In this document: piece by piece, positions 36,042 through 59,433 of the stretch
Numbering within the stretch: the stretch's first letter is position 1
Layout of the letters: each line of letters starts with the position of its first letter
From: an uncultured Bacteriovoracaceae bacterium
GTDB taxonomy: Bacteria; Bdellovibrionota; Bacteriovoracia; Bacteriovoracales; Bacteriovoracaceae
Direction of reading: 5' to 3'
Length of the DNA stretch: 64,000 nucleotides
Assembly (NCBI GenBank): GCA_938034385.1
Contig: CALHLC010000009.1
Coordinates: 1-64,000 of the forward strand
Notes under the pieces: generated by a model
Databases searched by the model: none
The model's input: the letters and a program-made list of their open reading frames with translations, nothing else
Told to the model about the DNA's origin: nothing
Program-made: the position numbers and the translations under genes

Positions 36042-37862
36042 ATGTTCCAACTAATATATGAGAAATTAAAAACAACTGCGAAAAATGAATATCTCTTTTT
36101 TACTGCCTTGTTATTTTCATTTCTTATAAACATCTGGCAAACAAAAATATGGTTTTTATCTGGTGAGATGTTTTTTAATGAGGCAGGATATCGATTTTTT
36201 TTCAACTCTTATTTAGGCATAAAGCAAGTATTAATGGTAGATTTGAATTATATTGCTTTACCCCAGCGGTTATTTTCATTTTTTTGCGTCGTATTTAAAA
36301 TACCTCATTTATACATTCCATACATTTATTCATTATGTGCAATCATAATGACATCCTTTTTTACATCTGTTTTTACACTTAGCAGGTTTAGAAGTTTAAT
36401 TAAAAATGATTATATACGATGTATCTTTTCCATTGTTTTTATTTTTGTAGGGGCTACTGATACGAAATCTTATATTAATTTCAGTTATTATTATATTATT
36501 CCTCTTTCTCTTTTCTCTCTACAGTTTTTGTTAAATGACAAAATAAAATTAAGTACATGGGTTTTTCTTCTCTCTGTATTTACTCTTTCAAAACCTTTTT
36601 ACATAATTTTTATTCCATGTTTTGTTATTTGTTTTTTTAAAAAGAATGAATTTAGAGAAAAGATTTGGCTTGTATTGAACTTAGGATTCCTTGTTTTTCA
36701 AGTTTATATAACGAAGCCATTTCTCTTTATTTTAGGTATGGCTGATAAAAATGGCGAATCATCGATAATTGAGATGAGCAATTCCTTTTACTCTTCAGTT
36801 CTTCCAGCCCTAGGTATAGAAATATCTTCAATTTTTTTTAGTACAAGTTATTTTGACCTTGAGGGAAGTAGTAACTTAAGTGTTCTTTTTTATACCGTTT
36901 TCACTCTCTTGCTCCTGCATATACCTTTAGCTTTTAACTTGAAAAAAATTGAAAGATATCGCTACATTGTTTCAATCAATTTTTATCTATTACTGTTATT
37001 AGGTTCAGAGATAGCAATTAAGTATGGAACAGTAAATGAAAGAATTGAACTGTTTGATATTGCCAATAAGTACGATCTCTGGTCAATTTTTTCTAAGTTG
37101 TTAGTAGTCGCAGTATTTACAAACATGTTATTTAAAAGTTGTAAGAGTTCATTTTTTAAGAAAACATTAGTCTTATTCTTCTCGGGACTTTTCTTTACTT
37201 CTGCATTTTATGATAAAATAAAAGAAAAGTTTTTAGAAGTGAAGTTGACAAATATTCTAAGTTGGCAAAATTATCCTCCACAAGGAACTGCTCATTTGTC
37301 GAAGTATTGTAATTATATATATTTAAGAACTGCCTTTTGTAACAAGTTAAGATTGTTAACTCAATTTAGAAGTGATTCGGATTCAGATAAATTTCTAGTA
37401 GCAACGCCAGGGACTAAACACCTTGTTTATAACTCAGAAGGTTATTACGATTCTAAATATATAATTACAGAGCATTTAACAGAAGAAACAATTCCAAATA
37501 AATACGAAGTTTTAGAACTTGGAATGTCACGCTCTCAAGTTCTAGAAAACCTTAAGTATGAGATCTATTCAAATGATTTAATGAAAGGTAATACAATTGT
37601 TGGTTTCTTTCTTCATCTAGAGATGGGGGGAAATTATAAGTCAAAATTTAGTGTGTCTCTTCATAACAAAGGAAGATTGGAGAAAAAGCATATCGTAAGG
37701 AAAATGGATGATAATGAAAATGATGTTGTGTTGCAATTCAAGTTTTCTGAAAATCTTAGATATGAAAATTTAAAGGATTTAAGAATTTCTTTTAGTGATG
37801 AGTTTGATGGTGGAAGTATTATGCTGAATAACGCAATAGTTGTTGAATGGTATGGAGAATGA
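36042..37862 (+). CDS. Polytopic membrane protein with C-terminal soluble domain
   Basis: 606 residues. About ten to twelve membrane helices occupy residues 15-390. A soluble, beta-rich domain of about 200 residues follows, with Cys pair near 425-435 (KYCNYIYLRTAFC). The layout recalls GT-C glycosyltransferases or polysaccharide polymerases, but no catalytic motif can be named. The start lacks a strong ribosome site. Composition is very hydrophobic and A/T-rich. Confidence 0.6.
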   Translation: MFQLIYEKLKTTAKNEYLFFTALLFSFLINIWQTKIWFLSGEMFFNEAGYRFFFNSYLGIKQVLMVDLNYIALPQRLFSFFCVVFKIPHLYIPYIYSLCAIIMTSFFTSVFTLSRFRSLIKNDYIRCIFSIVFIFVGATDTKSYINFSYYYIIPLSLFSLQFLLNDKIKLSTWVFLLSVFTLSKPFYIIFIPCFVICFFKKNEFREKIWLVLNLGFLVFQVYITKPFLFILGMADKNGESSIIEMSNSFYSSVLPALGIEISSIFFSTSYFDLEGSSNLSVLFYTVFTLLLLHIPLAFNLKKIERYRYIVSINFYLLLLLGSEIAIKYGTVNERIELFDIANKYDLWSIFSKLLVVAVFTNMLFKSCKSSFFKKTLVLFFSGLFFTSAFYDKIKEKFLEVKLTNILSWQNYPPQGTAHLSKYCNYIYLRTAFCNKLRLLTQFRSDSDSDKFLVATPGTKHLVYNSEGYYDSKYIITEHLTEETIPNKYEVLELGMSRSQVLENLKYEIYSNDLMKGNTIVGFFLHLEMGGNYKSKFSVSLHNKGRLEKKHIVRKMDDNENDVVLQFKFSENLRYENLKDLRISFSDEFDGGSIMLNNAIVVEWYGE

Positions 37863-37903
37863 ATAAAAGATCACTTGCTTGCTAGTCAGAAGTCTTGATC
37901 AAT

Positions 37904-37928
37904 AAAAAAGGGGACCTCTATGGTCCCC
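37904..37928 (-). terminator. Terminator of the 8-Cys repeat gene
   Basis: On the minus strand GGGGACC/GGTCCCC (37910-37916 with 37922-37928) is followed by TTTTTT (complement of 37904-37909). It lies about 40 bases after the gene's stop. Confidence 0.82.
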
Positions 37929-37969
37929 TCGAATAGTATTTATTCAATAGAGATGCGCTCTAGTGAAAA

Positions 37970-39331
37970 TTATTGTTGCGATCCAGCACGCTTTCCACCA
38001 CTTCTTCTACCATTTCCACGTCTTCCATTAGAACCCGTATTTTGATTTCCAGAGCTGGCTCCAAGCTTGATTATCTCAACTTTCATCCCAGTTATTACGA
38101 TTGAGTTGATTGCTTGCACTTGATGGCTTCTAGTCATAAAAGACATATCAGCTAGTAAGTCTATGCTTTTTGAGAAGTATCTTACGCTTCTTGCTCCTGA
38201 GGAGTATGTTAATTTAGAGTTTTGTAACAAATTAATACTTCCTGAAGTTCCTCCTAACATATGAGCTTGAACTGTAACCTTAGAGATTTTTTCATTATTC
38301 TTAAGGGCATTTCCTCTTATTAGCTTAAGCGTTTTTTCTACTGATAAGGCTTGTCCGTCTTTTAGGATTATGTCTAGATTCATATCCTGAACAATTTCTA
38401 CTGTATTGCCTTGTGGCTGGTCAGCAACACAAGTCATGAATGGGTGAGTTGCAGTACTAGAGAATCTTAATTCGTAAGCATTGTTTTTTTCTATGTACTT
38501 ACATGCAGCAGTTACTTGTTTAGCGTGCTTACTACAATTTTTTGCTTTCTTCTTAGCGTACTTCGTAATCTGAGTTCTAGTATTTGGAGCAGTAATTCCT
38601 TTGCATTTGTTAGCAGCAGGCTTTGCACAAATATTTGGATTGTTTACTTGTCTTCCATCCGTACATACAACGTTTCTCCATGATGGTAGCATTCCTTCAC
38701 AGTATAAACCTGATCCTCTATGAAAATTTGTTTGAACACATGCTGCCTTACACTTTAAGAAAGGATAAGCTTTAGAGTCAGAAAATCTTAATTCATAAGC
38801 ATTATTTTTTTCAATATACTTACATGCAGCAGTAACTGTTTTAGAATCCTTACTACAGTTCATAGATTTCTTTTTAGAGTACTTAGTAATTTGTGTTCTG
38901 GTATTTGGAGCTGTGATTCCTTTACATTTATTCACAGGTTGAGAAGCACATATTCTTGGATCTTGTGGCTTTCTTCCGTCATTACAAACAACTTTTTTCC
39001 AAGAAGGGTTCTGATTTGGACAGTATAAACCTTGTCCTCCAGCAAATCTTTGAAGCTGACATTTTTTAGCTCTAGTAGTCGTTGTCACTATTACTACAGG
39101 CTTAGTTGTAGTGGTTGTAGTAGTTGTAACTCCACCACCTCTATTTCCACCTCTTCTAGTTCCACCAGATCTTTTTCCTCCACCATCATTATTACCACTT
39201 CTGGCTTGTCCATTTCCATTGCCTTGTCCATTTCCCCGTTGTGAAAATGCATCAGCAGAAACTAGAAACATACTTAGAAGTAGAGTAATGAAGACTTTTT
39301 TGTTCATTGATTGAAATAATTTCGAGTTCAT
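37970..39331 (-). CDS. Secreted protein with two 8-cysteine repeats and Gly/Arg-rich ends
   Basis: 453 residues; ATG 39331 chosen for AAAGGGGAG just upstream and a signal peptide (about 10-30). Order: signal; Gly/Asn/Arg-rich low-complexity segment (32-66); threonine tracts (T8 and T4) around KPVVIV (69-87); repeat 1 (C91-C194); repeat 2 (C198-C301); a beta-rich domain (about 310-430); a Gly/Arg/Ser-rich tail. The repeats are exactly 107 residues apart and all eight cysteines align. No family recognised. The unpaired basic ends suggest surface or matrix association, which is inference. Confidence 0.7.
   Translation of the reverse strand: MNSKLFQSMNKKVFITLLLSMFLVSADAFSQRGNGQGNGNGQARSGNNDGGGKRSGGTRRGGNRGGGVTTTTTTTTKPVVIVTTTTRAKKCQLQRFAGGQGLYCPNQNPSWKKVVCNDGRKPQDPRICASQPVNKCKGITAPNTRTQITKYSKKKSMNCSKDSKTVTAACKYIEKNNAYELRFSDSKAYPFLKCKAACVQTNFHRGSGLYCEGMLPSWRNVVCTDGRQVNNPNICAKPAANKCKGITAPNTRTQITKYAKKKAKNCSKHAKQVTAACKYIEKNNAYELRFSSTATHPFMTCVADQPQGNTVEIVQDMNLDIILKDGQALSVEKTLKLIRGNALKNNEKISKVTVQAHMLGGTSGSINLLQNSKLTYSSGARSVRYFSKSIDLLADMSFMTRSHQVQAINSIVITGMKVEIIKLGASSGNQNTGSNGRRGNGRRSGGKRAGSQQ
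38429..38740 (-). repeat. Coding repeat 2 of the 8-Cys protein
   Basis: Encodes C198-C301. Aligned with repeat 1, cysteines 198, 211, 223, 235, 243, 266, 277, 301 match with constant offset 107. Confidence 0.85.
38750..39061 (-). repeat. Coding repeat 1 of the 8-Cys protein
   Basis: Encodes C91-C194, cysteines at 91, 104, 116, 128, 136, 159, 170, 194. The second half (CKGITAPNTRTQITKY and VTAACKYIEKNNAYELRFS) is identical in both copies; the first half has diverged. Confidence 0.85.
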
Positions 39332-39550
39332 ATTCTCCCCTTTAACAATAATATCTATTGTTGTTGTGTGCGAAACCTTCATTGGTCTTTCTTTTTGCAT
39401 TAATAAAAGCAAGAAATATGCCAATTTTATAATTCTAAAAAGTGAATAGGAAAGGCAATTTCAAAATAATTGTGCGTTGCGGGGTGCAAAATCTTCTAAA
39501 TGATAGACTGTGCAAGTGTCGTTTAGTCCATGGACGTCTGACTAGGCTGA

Positions 39551-40063
39551 TTAGTAATTTACATAAAATGTTAATACTTTCTTGATGATAACAGGCTCAA
39601 TGGGAACAGCTTCAAGAAAAGTACCAGAGATATCGATATCTTTAACTGAAACTTTGGCGATGGAATCAACGACCTCAATACCTTTTGTGACCTTACCAAA
39701 AACACAATAGCCAGGGTTAGAAGCATCTTTAAAATCAGAGTGAGGATTGTCCTTTTGATTAATATAAAATTGAGAGTTAGCGCTATGAGGATCTATATTT
39801 CTGGCCATGCCAATGGTTCCTCGTAGGTTGCAAAGACCATTGTCTGACTCATTAATTATATCGGCTCCTGGATTTTTAAACTGCATATCAGGACTCCAAG
39901 AGCCTGACTGAATCATAAAATCATCAATAACTCTATGGAAAATCAAACCTTCAAAGAATTTAGACTCAATATATGCAGAGAAGTTTTGTACTGTAATAGG
40001 AGCCTTATCTGGGTAGAGTTCAAGGTATATTGAGCCATGTGTTGTTATGATTGAAATATTCAT
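39551..40063 (-). CDS. Cyclophilin-type peptidyl-prolyl cis-trans isomerase
   Basis: 170 residues, no signal peptide, so cytoplasmic. Catalyses proline isomerisation. Active-site residues Arg44 (IFHRVI), Phe49, Gln52 (IQSG) and the QF pair at 98-99 (ANSQFYI) are in place. GTIGMAR and FGKVTKGIEVVD complete the fold. No partner nearby; the tRNA gene lies 18 bases upstream on the same strand. Confidence 0.92.
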   Translation of the reverse strand: MNISIITTHGSIYLELYPDKAPITVQNFSAYIESKFFEGLIFHRVIDDFMIQSGSWSPDMQFKNPGADIINESDNGLCNLRGTIGMARNIDPHSANSQFYINQKDNPHSDFKDASNPGYCVFGKVTKGIEVVDSIAKVSVKDIDISGTFLEAVPIEPVIIKKVLTFYVNY

Positions 40064-40081
40064 AAGTTTTTAGCTTTGTAA

Positions 40082-40158
40082 TGGTGGGACCACCTGGACT
40101 CGAACCAGGGACCACCCGGTTATGAGCCGGGGGCTCTAACCAACTGAGCTATGATCCC
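40082..40158 (-). tRNA. tRNA with CAT anticodon (Met or lysidine-modified Ile)
   Basis: 77 bases including encoded CCA. Acceptor GGGATCA pairs with TGGTCCC (one G.U); D arm TAGCTCAGTTGGTTAGAGC; anticodon stem CCCGG/CCGGG with loop CTCATAA, anticodon CAT; T arm CTGG-TTCGAGT-CCAG; discriminator A. It lacks initiator features, so it is elongator Met or Ile2; sequence alone does not settle which. Confidence 0.93.
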
Positions 40159-40264
40159 ACATATTAGCGATTGGTTTAGAATAGATGAATTTTATCGAAA
40201 AGCTTTCATTTTGGAAATCAAATCCTCCATCTTTTTAGCCTAAATAAAATATTCCATTATTGTT

Positions 40265-41254
40265 ATGCATCTTGAAGTATCTTTTTTACTATGGATTTTA
40301 GTGAAAGGTCTTATTAAATACACTTTATCCATCGTTTTAGTGCTGATTTGTACTGAGGTTTTTGTGAGCCAGAATCATACATATTTTAAGGCCTTAAGCG
40401 ATAAATTGCTCTTGAAGTTAGAAATGCTCAAAAAACGTGGAGATGATGAGCTCGTCTTTATAGGTAGTTCTAAAACTTTAGATGCAGTTGATAGTGAGTT
40501 ATTTAATACAACTTTTAATGAAAAATCCTCTAGAAAAATCAAGACTTTTAATATGGCTACAACTGGTCAAAACAAAAAACGATTCTTTCATACGATTAAG
40601 AAGGTCTTAAATTCTCAGGTAAAAGTTCTTGTTATTGAAGTATCTTACGTGAACTTTATTAAAGGGAAGCTTGGTTTTAATGAATTGAAAGAAAAGTTGA
40701 TAAAAGATTCTGAGAGTCAATCATTTGAAGAAAAGTTCCAAAGTTTTCTTGGAAGCAATTTGAAAATGGTCGAATTAAGAAAGGCTTTCAAGCCTAAAGC
40801 TTTATTAAGGCTTTTCATGATATTTACTAGTAACATTTTTAATCATGATATGTGGTTTAGATCTAATACTATAAAACAAATAGCATCTAAGTTCAGCTCT
40901 ATTCCTGAATTTAAAACTGATGTCTTGATTGAACCCGAAATAATTGAGTCAAATCTCTCTACAGATAATAAATTTGTAGACCTTGTAAATATTTTAAAAA
41001 TGACAGATAAAAAAATTATTTTTATAAATCCTCCTATAGGAGAAAAAGGAATAAAAAAAGAATGCAATGTACTTAATCATAGGTCTTATGAAGCCTTGTC
41101 ACATAAATTAAGTTCTAAGATCTATGATTACACTTGTGTAGCTTTTGATAAGAAATTTTTAAGAGATCTAACCCATTTAAACTCTTTAGGCCGGAGTGCA
41201 TTTACTCAAATGCTTGTTAGAGATTTAAAGTCTGAAATTATAGAAGTTTTGTAA
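40265..41254 (+). CDS. SGNH-hydrolase-like partner of the second MBOAT module
   Basis: 329 residues with an N-terminal anchor (about 8-35). Block I is FIGSSKTLDAVDSE (Ser68 or Ser69 candidate nucleophile); the C-terminal block is D301-L-T-H304 followed by LNSLGR, matching the D-x-x-H of SGNH enzymes. It stands in for the AlgJ/AlgX/DltD role with the next gene. It shares the layout, but little sequence, with the protein at 200-1258. No good ribosome site precedes ATG 40265; GTG at 40301 is an alternative start. Overlaps MBOAT start by one base (TAATG). Confidence 0.6.
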   Translation: MHLEVSFLLWILVKGLIKYTLSIVLVLICTEVFVSQNHTYFKALSDKLLLKLEMLKKRGDDELVFIGSSKTLDAVDSELFNTTFNEKSSRKIKTFNMATTGQNKKRFFHTIKKVLNSQVKVLVIEVSYVNFIKGKLGFNELKEKLIKDSESQSFEEKFQSFLGSNLKMVELRKAFKPKALLRLFMIFTSNIFNHDMWFRSNTIKQIASKFSSIPEFKTDVLIEPEIIESNLSTDNKFVDLVNILKMTDKKIIFINPPIGEKGIKKECNVLNHRSYEALSHKLSSKIYDYTCVAFDKKFLRDLTHLNSLGRSAFTQMLVRDLKSEIIEVL

Positions 41255-42621
41255 TGTTATTTAATACCATCACATTTATTATTTTCCATCTGGTTTGCTT
41301 AATAGTCTTCTGGAGCACTAAGAGCTTACTTATTCGTAATCTGCTTTTATTCTCAGGCTCACTTTTTTTTTATGGATGGTATTATTGGCCAGGACTTTTT
41401 GTTTTAGGGATATCAATTTTAATAAATTATTATTTTTCTTTAAAGATTGCTGAATCTAAATCAAAAAAAATATTGAGTATTGCCGTCATTACTAACCTTG
41501 CAAGTTTAAGCTTTTTCAAATATTCAAAATTTATACTTGATAATGTGATAGGACTTTTTAACTCATTTGGATTAGAACTGGGAGTTCCAGAGTATAATTA
41601 TTGGCTTCCTTTAGGGATTTCTTTCTATACATTTCAGGTTATTGGATACCTGGTCGATATTTATAGATCCGAAGTGGAAGTCGAAAAAGACTTTATCGTA
41701 TTTGGAGTATTTAAGTGTTTCTATGCTCAATTAATTGCAGGGCCAATAGTGAGGGCTAAAGAGTTTTTACCACAACTAAAGAAAGTAAATACTTTTGATC
41801 CAGATAAGTTTAAAATAGGGATTTATTATATTCTTGCAGGACTTTGTATAAAAATTGTCATAGCAGATACTGTTGCTCAATTTGTAGACTTCGGATTTAC
41901 TTCGCCAGAAAAGTTAAACCTCGTAAATTCCTGGGTCATTCTCTATGGTTTCGCTGTGCAAATTCTTTCTGACTTCTGGGGGTATTCCACTATTGCAATT
42001 GGCATAGGGTATATGTATGGAATTGAGCTTCCCCTAAATTTTAACAATCCGTATATTTCAAGCTCTATTAGAGAGTTTTGGAGAAGATGGCATATAACTT
42101 TAAGCTTTTGGCTTAGAGACTATTTATACATCTCACTTGGAGGTAATAGGGCCCACCGACTAAGAAACTTAATGGCAACTATGACTTTAGGTGGACTATG
42201 GCATGGAGCTAGTTGGAACTTTATCTTTTGGGGAATAGGGCATGGGCTTTGGTTGGTCTTGGAAAGAGTAATTCCTTTTAAATTACCTCGTAATAAATTT
42301 AGTAAGTTATTTAATCAATTAGTTGTCTTTCATGGAGTCTGTCTTTTGTGGGTCTTTTTTCGAGCCGATGACTTTAAAAACGCCTTTGAATATTTTAAGT
42401 CCTTAATAGGGATGAACGTCTCTTCAATAAAAGTTTCAGATACTTTGCTATTTCAATTAGCTCTTTTTATTTTATTTATTATCTGTTTTGAAAAGTCGCT
42501 TAAAGATCAAAGATTTTTAAAATGGAGTCTTCTTAAGCAAGTCTCTGTAAGCCTTCTATTTATCTTCTTAATTAACTCGTATGCAAATGCGAAGCTTGAT
42601 TTCATTTATTTTGTCTTTTAA
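41254..42621 (+). CDS. MBOAT-family membrane O-acyltransferase, second copy
   Basis: 455 residues, about ten membrane helices. Closer to canonical AlgI than the copy at 1839: PLGISFYTFQVIGYLVDIYR, QLIAGPIVRAKEFLPQL, FWRRWHITLSFWLRDYLYI, GGLWHGASWNFIFWG with likely catalytic His317. Expected to pass acyl groups across the inner membrane for modification of an exported glycan; the acceptor is unknown. The start overlaps the SGNH stop. Confidence 0.92.
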   Translation: MLFNTITFIIFHLVCLIVFWSTKSLLIRNLLLFSGSLFFYGWYYWPGLFVLGISILINYYFSLKIAESKSKKILSIAVITNLASLSFFKYSKFILDNVIGLFNSFGLELGVPEYNYWLPLGISFYTFQVIGYLVDIYRSEVEVEKDFIVFGVFKCFYAQLIAGPIVRAKEFLPQLKKVNTFDPDKFKIGIYYILAGLCIKIVIADTVAQFVDFGFTSPEKLNLVNSWVILYGFAVQILSDFWGYSTIAIGIGYMYGIELPLNFNNPYISSSIREFWRRWHITLSFWLRDYLYISLGGNRAHRLRNLMATMTLGGLWHGASWNFIFWGIGHGLWLVLERVIPFKLPRNKFSKLFNQLVVFHGVCLLWVFFRADDFKNAFEYFKSLIGMNVSSIKVSDTLLFQLALFILFIICFEKSLKDQRFLKWSLLKQVSVSLLFIFLINSYANAKLDFIYFVF

Positions 42622-57087: not shown

Positions 57088-57550
57088 GAAAATTTAGAAC
57101 ATCAGAATAAGTTTGATTTCCCCAGTAAAAAATATATTTAGATTGAATACTTTTAGATTTTGAATTAGATGATTTTTTTGAGAGAAAAGACTTTAATTGT
57201 CTAAATAATGATTGGGTCATTTCAAGATCATCTTGGCTTAAATAAACTTTTGAAATGTTTAATCCATCTTCTGTATTGATAAAACGATTTCTTGCACTAT
57301 CAAGGATTGATTTAAGCTCGTAGTTTTTAGATGTTTTTTGAGTTAATAGTTTTTTTATCTCATGAACATTTGAGGAGTTGATAAAATATTCATTCTCTTG
57401 AAAAAATAAGAGATTACTTTTAATGAGTTTAGAAAGAGTATTTTTTAAATAACTTGATTCAAGCTTCAGATCTTCTGATAAATCATGGAAGTTTTTACTT
57501 GAACTATTTAAACTCTCAATAATATATCTCTCGATAGGTGTAAGGCTCAT
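57077..57550 (-). CDS. Downstream half of a split TIGR02147-like regulator
   Basis: 157 residues. It begins with a winged-helix-like segment (PIERYIIESLNSSSKNFHDL). The C-terminal pattern ISKVYLSQDDLEMTQSLFRQ, then LKSFLSKK and a final strand, resembles the end of TIGR02147/DUF4423 proteins known from Bdellovibrio and Fibrobacter. The ATG overlaps the stop of the upstream half (ATGA). Together the two halves total about 265 residues, close to one full TIGR02147 protein. Confidence 0.6.
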   Translation of the reverse strand: MSLTPIERYIIESLNSSSKNFHDLSEDLKLESSYLKNTLSKLIKSNLLFFQENEYFINSSNVHEIKKLLTQKTSKNYELKSILDSARNRFINTEDGLNISKVYLSQDDLEMTQSLFRQLKSFLSKKSSNSKSKSIQSKYIFYWGNQTYSDVLNFLNS

Positions 57551-57873
57551 AAGGCAACCTCTGTTTTTGTTGTCTTACATTTGAGCTGAAAGTTCATTTC
57601 ATCAATAAGTGTGTTTATTTTTGTCTCATTAAGACTCTTGAAGCATAGATTAGTAAGATTAAAGAATTCTTTATAATAATTTTGTGCATTGTTTTCTCGT
57701 AAAATTTTATCAATCTTTTCATATTCTGAAATTTTCATTTCATAACCATTTAAAAGTCTAAAAACTCTCGATGGATGAATCTTTGTTGTGATTGCAACTT
57801 CTTTTATCGTTTGATTGGGAAAAATAGTTTTATATTCATCTAAAACCTTTCTTTGTAATAATGATTGATACAT
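57547..57873 (-). CDS. Upstream HTH half of a split TIGR02147-like regulator
   Basis: 108 residues with a helix-turn-helix (about 22-45, TIKEVAITTKIHPSRVFRLL) and a following helical segment. It resembles the DNA-binding N-terminus of TIGR02147 proteins. It ends GTT GCC TTA TGA, where the ATG of the next frame overlaps the stop. Whether this is a natural split, programmed frameshift or recent mutation cannot be told. Confidence 0.6.
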   Translation of the reverse strand: MYQSLLQRKVLDEYKTIFPNQTIKEVAITTKIHPSRVFRLLNGYEMKISEYEKIDKILRENNAQNYYKEFFNLTNLCFKSLNETKINTLIDEMNFQLKCKTTKTEVAL

Positions 57874-57927
57874 TACCTTGCTCCTTGTTTAAATTCTTAA
57901 ACATAGCTAAGCAAAAGTGGTGCCAAT

Positions 57928-59274
57928 TTATTGTTGCGTGTTGTTATTGATGATTCTGTAATAAGAAGAATTTGAAATTTTTAGAGTTTTTATTACTTCT
58001 GTTGCTTTACCTTTGCACAACTTGTGAGCATTAGTAATTGCCTCTTTTTCAACTTCACTAATAAATGATTTAAGCCCAAATTGGTTAATATAATTCAATT
58101 GCTTATTCGACAGCACTGTATTGGTATTATTTGTTTTAATCTTAAGGTTTTGAATAATTGGGTGAGTATTTGTAATAATCCCTTCTTTAGACAGAGATAA
58201 GTTTGAGATTAATTTTTTTAACTCTCTTGTATTACCAGGCCATGAATAATGAAGTAAGGACTGAATAACATCTTGCTCTATAAAGAACTTTCTAGATGTC
58301 TTTGATAAAAAATGATAAATCTGTAATTCGACATCTTCAGGTCTTGTTTGTAGAGAAGGAATAGTTATTTCAAAGCCATTGATTCGATAATATAAGTCCT
58401 GCCTAAACTGCTTGAGATCTATTTTTTCTTGAATATCTTCACAGGTGGCACTTATTAAAGTGAAGTTTACTTTGATAGGTTTTGTTGCTCCTATAGGAGT
58501 GAACTCTTTCTCTTCTAAGACCTTTAAGAGCTTTTGTTGAGTATAAAGAGGCATAGTAGCGATTTCATCTAAGAATAGAGTGCCATTATCAGCAAGCTCT
58601 AAAAGCCCTTTCTTAGAACTCTGAGCACCTGTGAATGCACCTTTTTTATATCCAAAAAGTTCTGATTCAATCAGATTTTCTGGAACTTCGCTGCAATTAA
58701 AGTGAAAAAAGTTTTTATTGTCATAGTTTAATTCGTGAATGAGTTTTGCAAGATGAGTTTTTCCAGAGCCAGTTGGACCAAATAGTAAGATAGCACTGTT
58801 TTGCAGATTCATTTCTGCTAAGTTTTGGATATTTTGAATCAAAGCTGAATTTTGAGTAATAAATTTTTGAGAAAAATATTCATTCCAATTTATTTTTTTC
58901 TGAACTCTTAGATAGCTCTCTAGATATTTATTTAGAGAGTCCCTGAATGTTGATTTCCTGAGAAAATGATCACAGCCAAGTTTATAAGCTTCTCTTGTGG
59001 TTTCATCGTCTTCATTATTACTTAGGATAATTGAATAAATATTTTTAGACTTAGTCTTCTTAAGTACGGCTAACCCTGCAGGAGAAGAAGAACTATCCAG
59101 GTTGAGGTCTATAATGGCCAAATCATAGCTATTCTTGTCTAACAAAGCTTGGGCTTGATTCAAGTTTGAGCAAAGATCAAAATGACCGAACAGAGATAAG
59201 GTTTTGCCGAGTTCAAATGAAAAATATTTATCATCTTCAACAAGTAAAATTGAAAGAGATTCCTTCTTGTGCAT
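57928..59274 (-). CDS. NtrC-family sigma54-dependent response regulator
   Basis: 448 residues from ATG 59274; the frame opens 50 codons earlier but those residues are unlike a receiver. Receiver (1-115): acidic Asp14/Asp15, phospho-acceptor Asp56, Lys107. AAA+ domain: Walker A GPTGSGKT (166-173), sigma54-contacting GAFTGA (212-217), LFLDEIATM Walker B. Fis-type helix-turn-helix at the C-terminus (KATEVIKTLKISNSSYYRII). No cognate kinase adjacent. Confidence 0.92.
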   Translation of the reverse strand: MHKKESLSILLVEDDKYFSFELGKTLSLFGHFDLCSNLNQAQALLDKNSYDLAIIDLNLDSSSSPAGLAVLKKTKSKNIYSIILSNNEDDETTREAYKLGCDHFLRKSTFRDSLNKYLESYLRVQKKINWNEYFSQKFITQNSALIQNIQNLAEMNLQNSAILLFGPTGSGKTHLAKLIHELNYDNKNFFHFNCSEVPENLIESELFGYKKGAFTGAQSSKKGLLELADNGTLFLDEIATMPLYTQQKLLKVLEEKEFTPIGATKPIKVNFTLISATCEDIQEKIDLKQFRQDLYYRINGFEITIPSLQTRPEDVELQIYHFLSKTSRKFFIEQDVIQSLLHYSWPGNTRELKKLISNLSLSKEGIITNTHPIIQNLKIKTNNTNTVLSNKQLNYINQFGLKSFISEVEKEAITNAHKLCKGKATEVIKTLKISNSSYYRIINNNTQQ

Positions 59275-59433
59275 ACTGCTATTTAGTATAAATATTCTAG
59301 AAGTAGAATATATAAATTCTATTTTCAGAATATTGTAAGAAAATATTTTAGCCCCCTGCAATAAAGTGCTTATTAGAAATTTCATAATAATTGCAAGAAT
59401 ATTGTTAGAAAGACAGATTCTCATTTAATAAAT

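Follow-up and report, generated by a model that had tools for sequence, protein, structure and literature searches.

The Bacteriovoracaceae are a family known for predators. In the open-licence papers searched we found no description of a sigma-54 regulon in Bdellovibrio-like bacteria, for secreted proteins or otherwise; two-thirds of the Bdellovibrio attack-phase promoters are of the FliA type and the remaining third are unassigned (PMC3627812), and for Bdellovibrio RpoN (bd0843) PMC3464611 goes no further than listing a predicted sigma factor, a designation also given in PMC11209729. A regulon of this kind could be approached directly from an orphan secreted protein whose sigma-54 promoter is conserved and recurs before secreted families with similar leaders.

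The gene analysed here lies in a window of 64,000 nucleotides, the whole stretch of DNA under study, from a Bacteriovoracaceae metagenome-assembled genome of 2.67 Mb (G000). It encodes P0001, an exported cationic protein of 453 amino acids and 16 cysteines, and its ortholog is carried by a second Bacteriovoracaceae genome of the same genus (G003). Judged from sequence comparison, P0001 is a real, selected, lineage-restricted exported protein, encoded as a single gene with a putative sigma-54 promoter, and its function is predicted only. The features of the locus are as follows, (−) denoting the minus strand.

36042–42621, variable block between dinB and dapF beside tRNA-Met, with membrane protein, P0001, ppiB, SGNH-like and MBOAT genes
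37908–37930 (−), intrinsic terminator, 9-bp stem and T-run, predicted fold −17.1 kcal/mol
37970–39331 (−), P0001 gene, 453 aa, stop included, ATG at 39331
37973–38047 (−), Gly/Arg/Lys-rich tail, residues 429–453, read from the sequence and much shorter in the G003 ortholog
38048–38419 (−), Cys-free C-terminal domain, residues 305–428, unrecognised
38426–38611 (−), module B2, residues 241–302, four Cys
38627–38740 (−), module A2, residues 198–235, four Cys
38747–38932 (−), module B1, residues 134–195, four Cys, C-x22-C-x10-C-x23-C
38948–39061 (−), module A1, residues 91–128, four Cys, C-x12-C-x11-C-x11-C
39074–39127 (−), Thr8 plus Thr4 linker, residues 69–86, read from the sequence
39085–39074 (−), Thr4, residues 83–86, read from the sequence
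39127–39104 (−), Thr8, residues 69–76, codons ACA ACT ACT ACA ACC ACT ACA ACT
39128–39241 (−), Gly/Arg/Asn-rich arm, residues 31–68, pI 12.0, 16 of 38 residues Gly
39242–39331 (−), signal peptide, residues 1–30, likely cleavage AFS/QRG
39335–39341 (−), ribosome-binding site AGGGGAG, read from the sequence; AAAGGGGAGAAT before the ATG is kept in G003
39403–39424 (−), sigma-54 promoter TTGGCATATTTCTTGCTTTTAT, −24 GG, N10, −12 GC
39478–39526 (−), candidate UAS for an activator, about 54 nt 5' of the −24 box, putative role
57928–59424 (−), sigma-54 activator with receiver and AAA+ domain carrying GAFTGA, PF00158 E 6.3e-59

GG and GC ten bases apart are the signature of sigma-54, and the P0001 promoter was judged by a −24 GG and a −12 GC at 10-nt spacing within YTGGCAYRN4TTGCW; promoter counts cover the 64-kb window and individually retrieved loci. 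We found that TTGGCATATTTCTTGCT at 39424–39408 is the sole perfect match to TGGCAYRN4TTGCW in the 64 kb, where 0.00 were expected, and that all 22 nucleotides of TTGGCATATTTCTTGCTTTTAT are identical in the G003 ortholog, within a spacer that has otherwise diverged. The candidate activator-binding block is a 49-nt stretch that is largely conserved between the two genomes. RpoN is encoded in G000 (contig C13, 482 aa; PF00309, PF04963 and PF04552 all above cut-off), and the sigma-54 activator in the window shows that sigma-54 control operates in this genome. The P0001 gene is apparently switched on by sigma-54. A scan for a sigma-70 promoter upstream gave no more sites than shuffled sequence, and the longer TTG frame of P0001 in the open reading frame listing runs over the sigma-54 promoter. 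A promoter of this type between ppiB and the P0001 gene makes a single-gene transcript likely, and inspection of the G003 sequence revealed an equivalent hairpin and T-run at the same place. The initial annotation had described the gene as monocistronic with its own terminator, which is well supported by a promoter of its own upstream and a terminator downstream in both genomes.

The two orthologs are 80% identical, with all 16 Cys kept, and substitution rates (dN 0.13 and dS 1.5 for the whole protein; dN 0.09–0.12 and dS >1.1 for each of modules A and B) indicate that P0001, including both modules, is under purifying selection between them. The gene occurs in two of the four genomes of the genus (G000 and G003), and module profiles found it in none of the other genomes among 129 of the order and 369 of the phylum. 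Searches of genome contigs with P0001, of viral contigs, and of phages and plasmids (tblastn), together with phylum-wide profiles, returned only the G003 ortholog and a module on contig C50 of G000, while weak matches to P0001 or its modules (E 0.001–0.1) were inspected or discarded as short, stop-containing or located in unrelated proteins. Searches of Pfam, NCBIfam, PHROGs and PDB sequences for a described family, Cys-rich families included, yielded no match above cut-off, in keeping with the earlier statement that the architecture is not recognised. The nearest relatives of a housekeeping protein from the window are Bacteriovoracaceae metagenome-assembled genomes (88% and 67% identity).

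P0001 is neighboured by ppiB, tRNA-Met, SGNH-like and MBOAT acyltransferase genes, a membrane protein gene and dinB. The gene lies between dapF/tRNA-Met/ppiB and dinB in both G000 and G003, accompanied by the SGNH-like and MBOAT acyltransferase genes, and the whole block is missing from two other genomes (G001 and G002), where dapF, tRNA-Met and dinB lie close together. An acyltransferase-SGNH fusion in G003 takes the place of the 606-aa membrane protein of G000, showing that the locus is variable.

The signal peptide claimed in the initial annotation was recognised by inspection as a Sec-type leader with all its parts: n-region, hydrophobic core and A-x-A type site (MNSKLFQSMNKK-VFITLLLSMFLVS-ADAFS/QRG). 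Its hydrophobic core and A-x-[A/S]/Q site are common to the leaders of related genes. No lipobox Cys follows the signal peptide and the first Cys is residue 91, so P0001 is not a lipoprotein. The mature protein (46 kDa, pI 10.15) carries 69 Lys/Arg against 21 Asp/Glu, and the basic Gly-rich ends noted earlier correspond to the arm (residues 31–68) and the tail stretch (425–453), each with a pI of 12.0. The arm is partly duplicated in the G003 ortholog; differences in arm and tail length between the two orthologs indicate that their exact sequence is not critical.

The runs of eight and four Thr noted earlier are present, and the mixed codons of Thr8 argue against a simple DNA microsatellite. 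The G000 genome has five stretches of seven consecutive ACN codons, all read as Thr tracts and all in exported or Cys-rich proteins: P0001, three lipoproteins (contigs C13, C19 and C31) in which the lipobox segment precedes the tract, and the Cys-rich protein of contig C40, whose Cys modules are set apart by Thr19 and Thr30. This distribution indicates that Thr tracts are linkers in this organism, and glycosylation of the tracts is possible. P0001 shares the use of a Thr tract as linker with these four proteins, which differ from it in being lipoproteins or Cys-rich and in having other domains; the C13, C19 and C31 genes further differ in having no sigma-54 site upstream. Thr tracts and the Gly/Arg N-terminal arm are not peculiar to P0001; exported proteins unrelated to it, in this genome or in the family, have them too. 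The longer Thr tract of the C40 protein (L038, C40:6500–10500) is a nearly pure ACT run, so its length is likely variable.

All 16 Cys of P0001 sit in two repeats, at residues 91, 104, 116, 128, 136, 159, 170 and 194 (repeat 1, 91–194) and 198, 211, 223, 235, 243, 266, 277 and 301 (repeat 2, 198–301). The constant offset of 107 reported for the eight Cys of each repeat was confirmed, with 66 of 105 residues (63%) identical at this offset compared to 2–12 at other offsets, and a local alignment score of 380 between the repeats (shuffles: mean 33, sd 6.2, max 58). Each 8-Cys repeat combines two 4-Cys modules, arranged A1-B1-A2-B2, and one of them occurs on its own elsewhere. The identity between B1 and B2 is higher in G000 (77% of amino acids; 38426–38932, minus strand) than in G003 (65%; L004), which suggests some homogenisation between the repeats.

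Module A, with the core PSWxxVVCxDGR, is also found in the tail of a 2265-aa Cys-rich lipoprotein of G000 (L010, C50:1591–8388, minus strand), as a 38-residue segment with 63% amino acid identity to A1, all four Cys and the same core, flanked by the repeated linker PPTSTSSC. L010 has a diverged second copy at its end, with Pro/Thr/Ser linkers joining its modules; unlike P0001, it has a lipobox, about 20 other Cys repeats and neither module B nor the C-terminal domain, and the 350 nt before its gene contain no sigma-54 site. G003 encodes its own form of this lipoprotein (L122), in which the first copy of module A is missing at the same site and the neighbouring modules are kept, indicating gain or loss as a unit and thus probably an independent fold; module A is probably autonomous, as judged from this difference. 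A recent copying event was rejected for the C50 module, which is equally distant (73% nucleotide identity) from A1 of G000 and of G003, making loss in G003 likelier than recent gain. The two 4-Cys modules would represent undescribed small disulfide-rich domains, with disulfides predicted, one of them apparently gained or lost as a unit. Other Cys repeats of L010 follow the pattern GC...N...ENGSC...CC...NYDPxC, and the protein also contains a CxxCH motif (CAGCH) and a dockerin-like calcium repeat (Dockerin_1, E 0.009, below cut-off).

We also assessed whether the leader and promoter of P0001 occur on other secreted proteins. A leader profile search picked up further exported proteins, and a single-sequence search gave E 5.5e-10 for G078 and 7.5e-6 for G076, scores of a kind that low complexity inflates. 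Two kinds of protein are relevant here. A secreted family of about 1250 aa (~1220–1290 aa) with DG-rich repeats, present in G076, G078, G077, G061 and G034 (L012 4242–7889; L013 928–4728; L134, L136, L137), likewise has a signal peptide leading into a Gly/Arg/Asn arm (AQRRGGNGDG in G076; AQRRRGDGNG in G078, with Thr8) and a sigma-54-like site upstream. It differs from P0001 in an entirely different core with no Cys modules and, in G076, no Thr tract, and in G077, G061 and G034 the leader is less similar and has no exact QRRG start. The other is P0002 (G001, contig C7; L139:1468–2100), a secreted basic protein of 210 aa from the same genus as P0001, with the STDAFSQRRGGGG leader (SQRRGGGG), a basic core, an RRGGRRGG tail, and promoter and 5' leader DNA similar to that of P0001 (local score 35, shuffled max 33). 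P0002 has neither Cys modules nor a Thr tract and lies at another genomic place, and its core has no significant similarity to the C-terminal domain of P0001; a likeness seen by eye was rejected (permutation p 0.03–0.24, hhalign probability 0.1). In the DG-rich family we further observed a coiled-coil-like stretch, sites about 130–190 nt upstream in four of the five genomes and, for the one member scanned, no Pfam match.

Using a relaxed upstream pattern, we found a sigma-54-like site before all eight genes of the (A/S)QRRG-type Gly/Arg leader-arm group, a grouping made in this analysis: at −92 in P0001, −95 in its G003 ortholog and −87 in P0002, and, among the DG-rich genes, at −186 (G077), −131 (G061), −169 (G076), −167 (G078) and −31 (G034), the last doubtful and just 31 nt before the ATG. 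By chance, one such site would occur in 350 nt with a probability of 1.2–3.7% for each gene, and no site was found upstream of 15 other secreted-protein genes, including the Thr-tract lipoproteins and the giant lipoprotein. The sites were already known when these genes, picked by similarity of low-complexity leaders, were grouped, and the eight include orthologs that are not independent, such that the independent, unrelated protein families number three. Five related genomes, perhaps six, carry sigma-54-like sites before genes for secreted proteins that are unrelated to P0001 but have a leader arm like its own. We tentatively propose an undescribed Bacteriovoracaceae sigma-54 regulon, in which one promoter-plus-leader type (signal peptide, Q-R-R-G Gly/Arg arm and optional Thr spacer) placed on unrelated cores would yield condition-specific exported cationic proteins, possibly deployed on meeting other cells. 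Equally tentative, and joined to that proposal, is the place of P0001 as the member with a core formed by a pair of new 4-Cys modules. Genome G027 (L127, L141) encodes secreted proteins with a Gly/Ser/Arg leader, repeated RGPxYNPxRG/TTTRPSTP linkers and a Cys-containing C-terminal part; no sigma-54 site was found upstream of these two genes.

The best reading of the P0001 sequence is a regulated, exported, disulfide-stabilised cationic protein that would bind at the cell surface or in its surroundings, and we give about an even chance to an exported, positively charged protein that is produced on demand and serves in binding or as a structural component. The −24/−12 promoter would drive P0001 as a single gene ending at its own terminator, and transcription would need an ATP-dependent activator, such that P0001 production would be confined to a particular condition. 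Signal peptidase would cut in front of Gln31 and thereby release a flexible Gly/Arg arm, with the Thr spacer after it, and in the oxidising periplasm or outside the 16 conserved Cys would pair as disulfides, giving four small rigid modules in the order A1-B1-A2-B2. The basic arms and modules could hold P0001 on anionic polymers (its own or foreign LPS, peptidoglycan, DNA or capsule), and the repeated modules together with the C-terminal domain may provide multivalent contact with a ligand. This reading is supported by the signal peptide without lipobox, the high pI, the conserved Cys, the reuse of module A, the Thr-tract linkers, the conserved promoter unique in the window, RpoN, the activator and the sites before related leader genes; the variable length of arm and tail between orthologs and the number of known orthologs, two, count against it. 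AlphaFold models reached pLDDT 45 for one repeat (5-row alignment) and 39 for the C-terminal domain (2-row alignment), so no fold supports a binding role; the weak C-terminal model suggests a beta-alpha-beta arrangement.

The strong basic charge, paired Cys, secretion and regulated promoter would also suit a secreted antibacterial protein directed at competitors or prey, with active A/B repeats and membrane- or LPS-seeking arms, as would a host family with predatory members. We consider this unlikely, as no obvious immunity gene adjoins P0001, a mature protein of 46 kDa with a large Cys-free C-terminal domain is unlike defensin-type peptides, and the presence of module A in a surface lipoprotein suggests binding rather than killing. 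A subunit for assembly of the bacterium's own extracellular matrix or appendage, within a sigma-54 regulon of surface proteins sharing the leader type, would account for the sigma-54-like sites before structurally unrelated exported proteins with AQRRG/SQRRG-type arms, and the nearby O-acyltransferase genes could act on a surface polysaccharide; the leader-bearing families nevertheless have no common core domain, including between the C-terminal domain and P0002, and no known assembly machinery lies beside the P0001 gene, which leaves this role with a low probability. Sixteen Cys and a single weak Pfam match, of one repeat copy to the zinc-finger-like RIM2a_ZnF (E 0.042), could be taken to indicate that P0001 binds metal in the periplasm or buffers redox there, through Cys that act as metal ligands or in thiol cycling. 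Such a function is highly unlikely given module A and B spacings with no CxxC pair, no His conserved across the modules, and Thr and Gly/Arg linkers typical of extended extracellular architecture.

Apart from the P0001 locus, a near-perfect sigma-54 site (TGGCACCACTTTTGCT; 57910–57925, minus strand) was observed in the window, 37 nt upstream of a 108-aa gene (57547–57873, minus strand; no Pfam match) that directly follows the activator gene.
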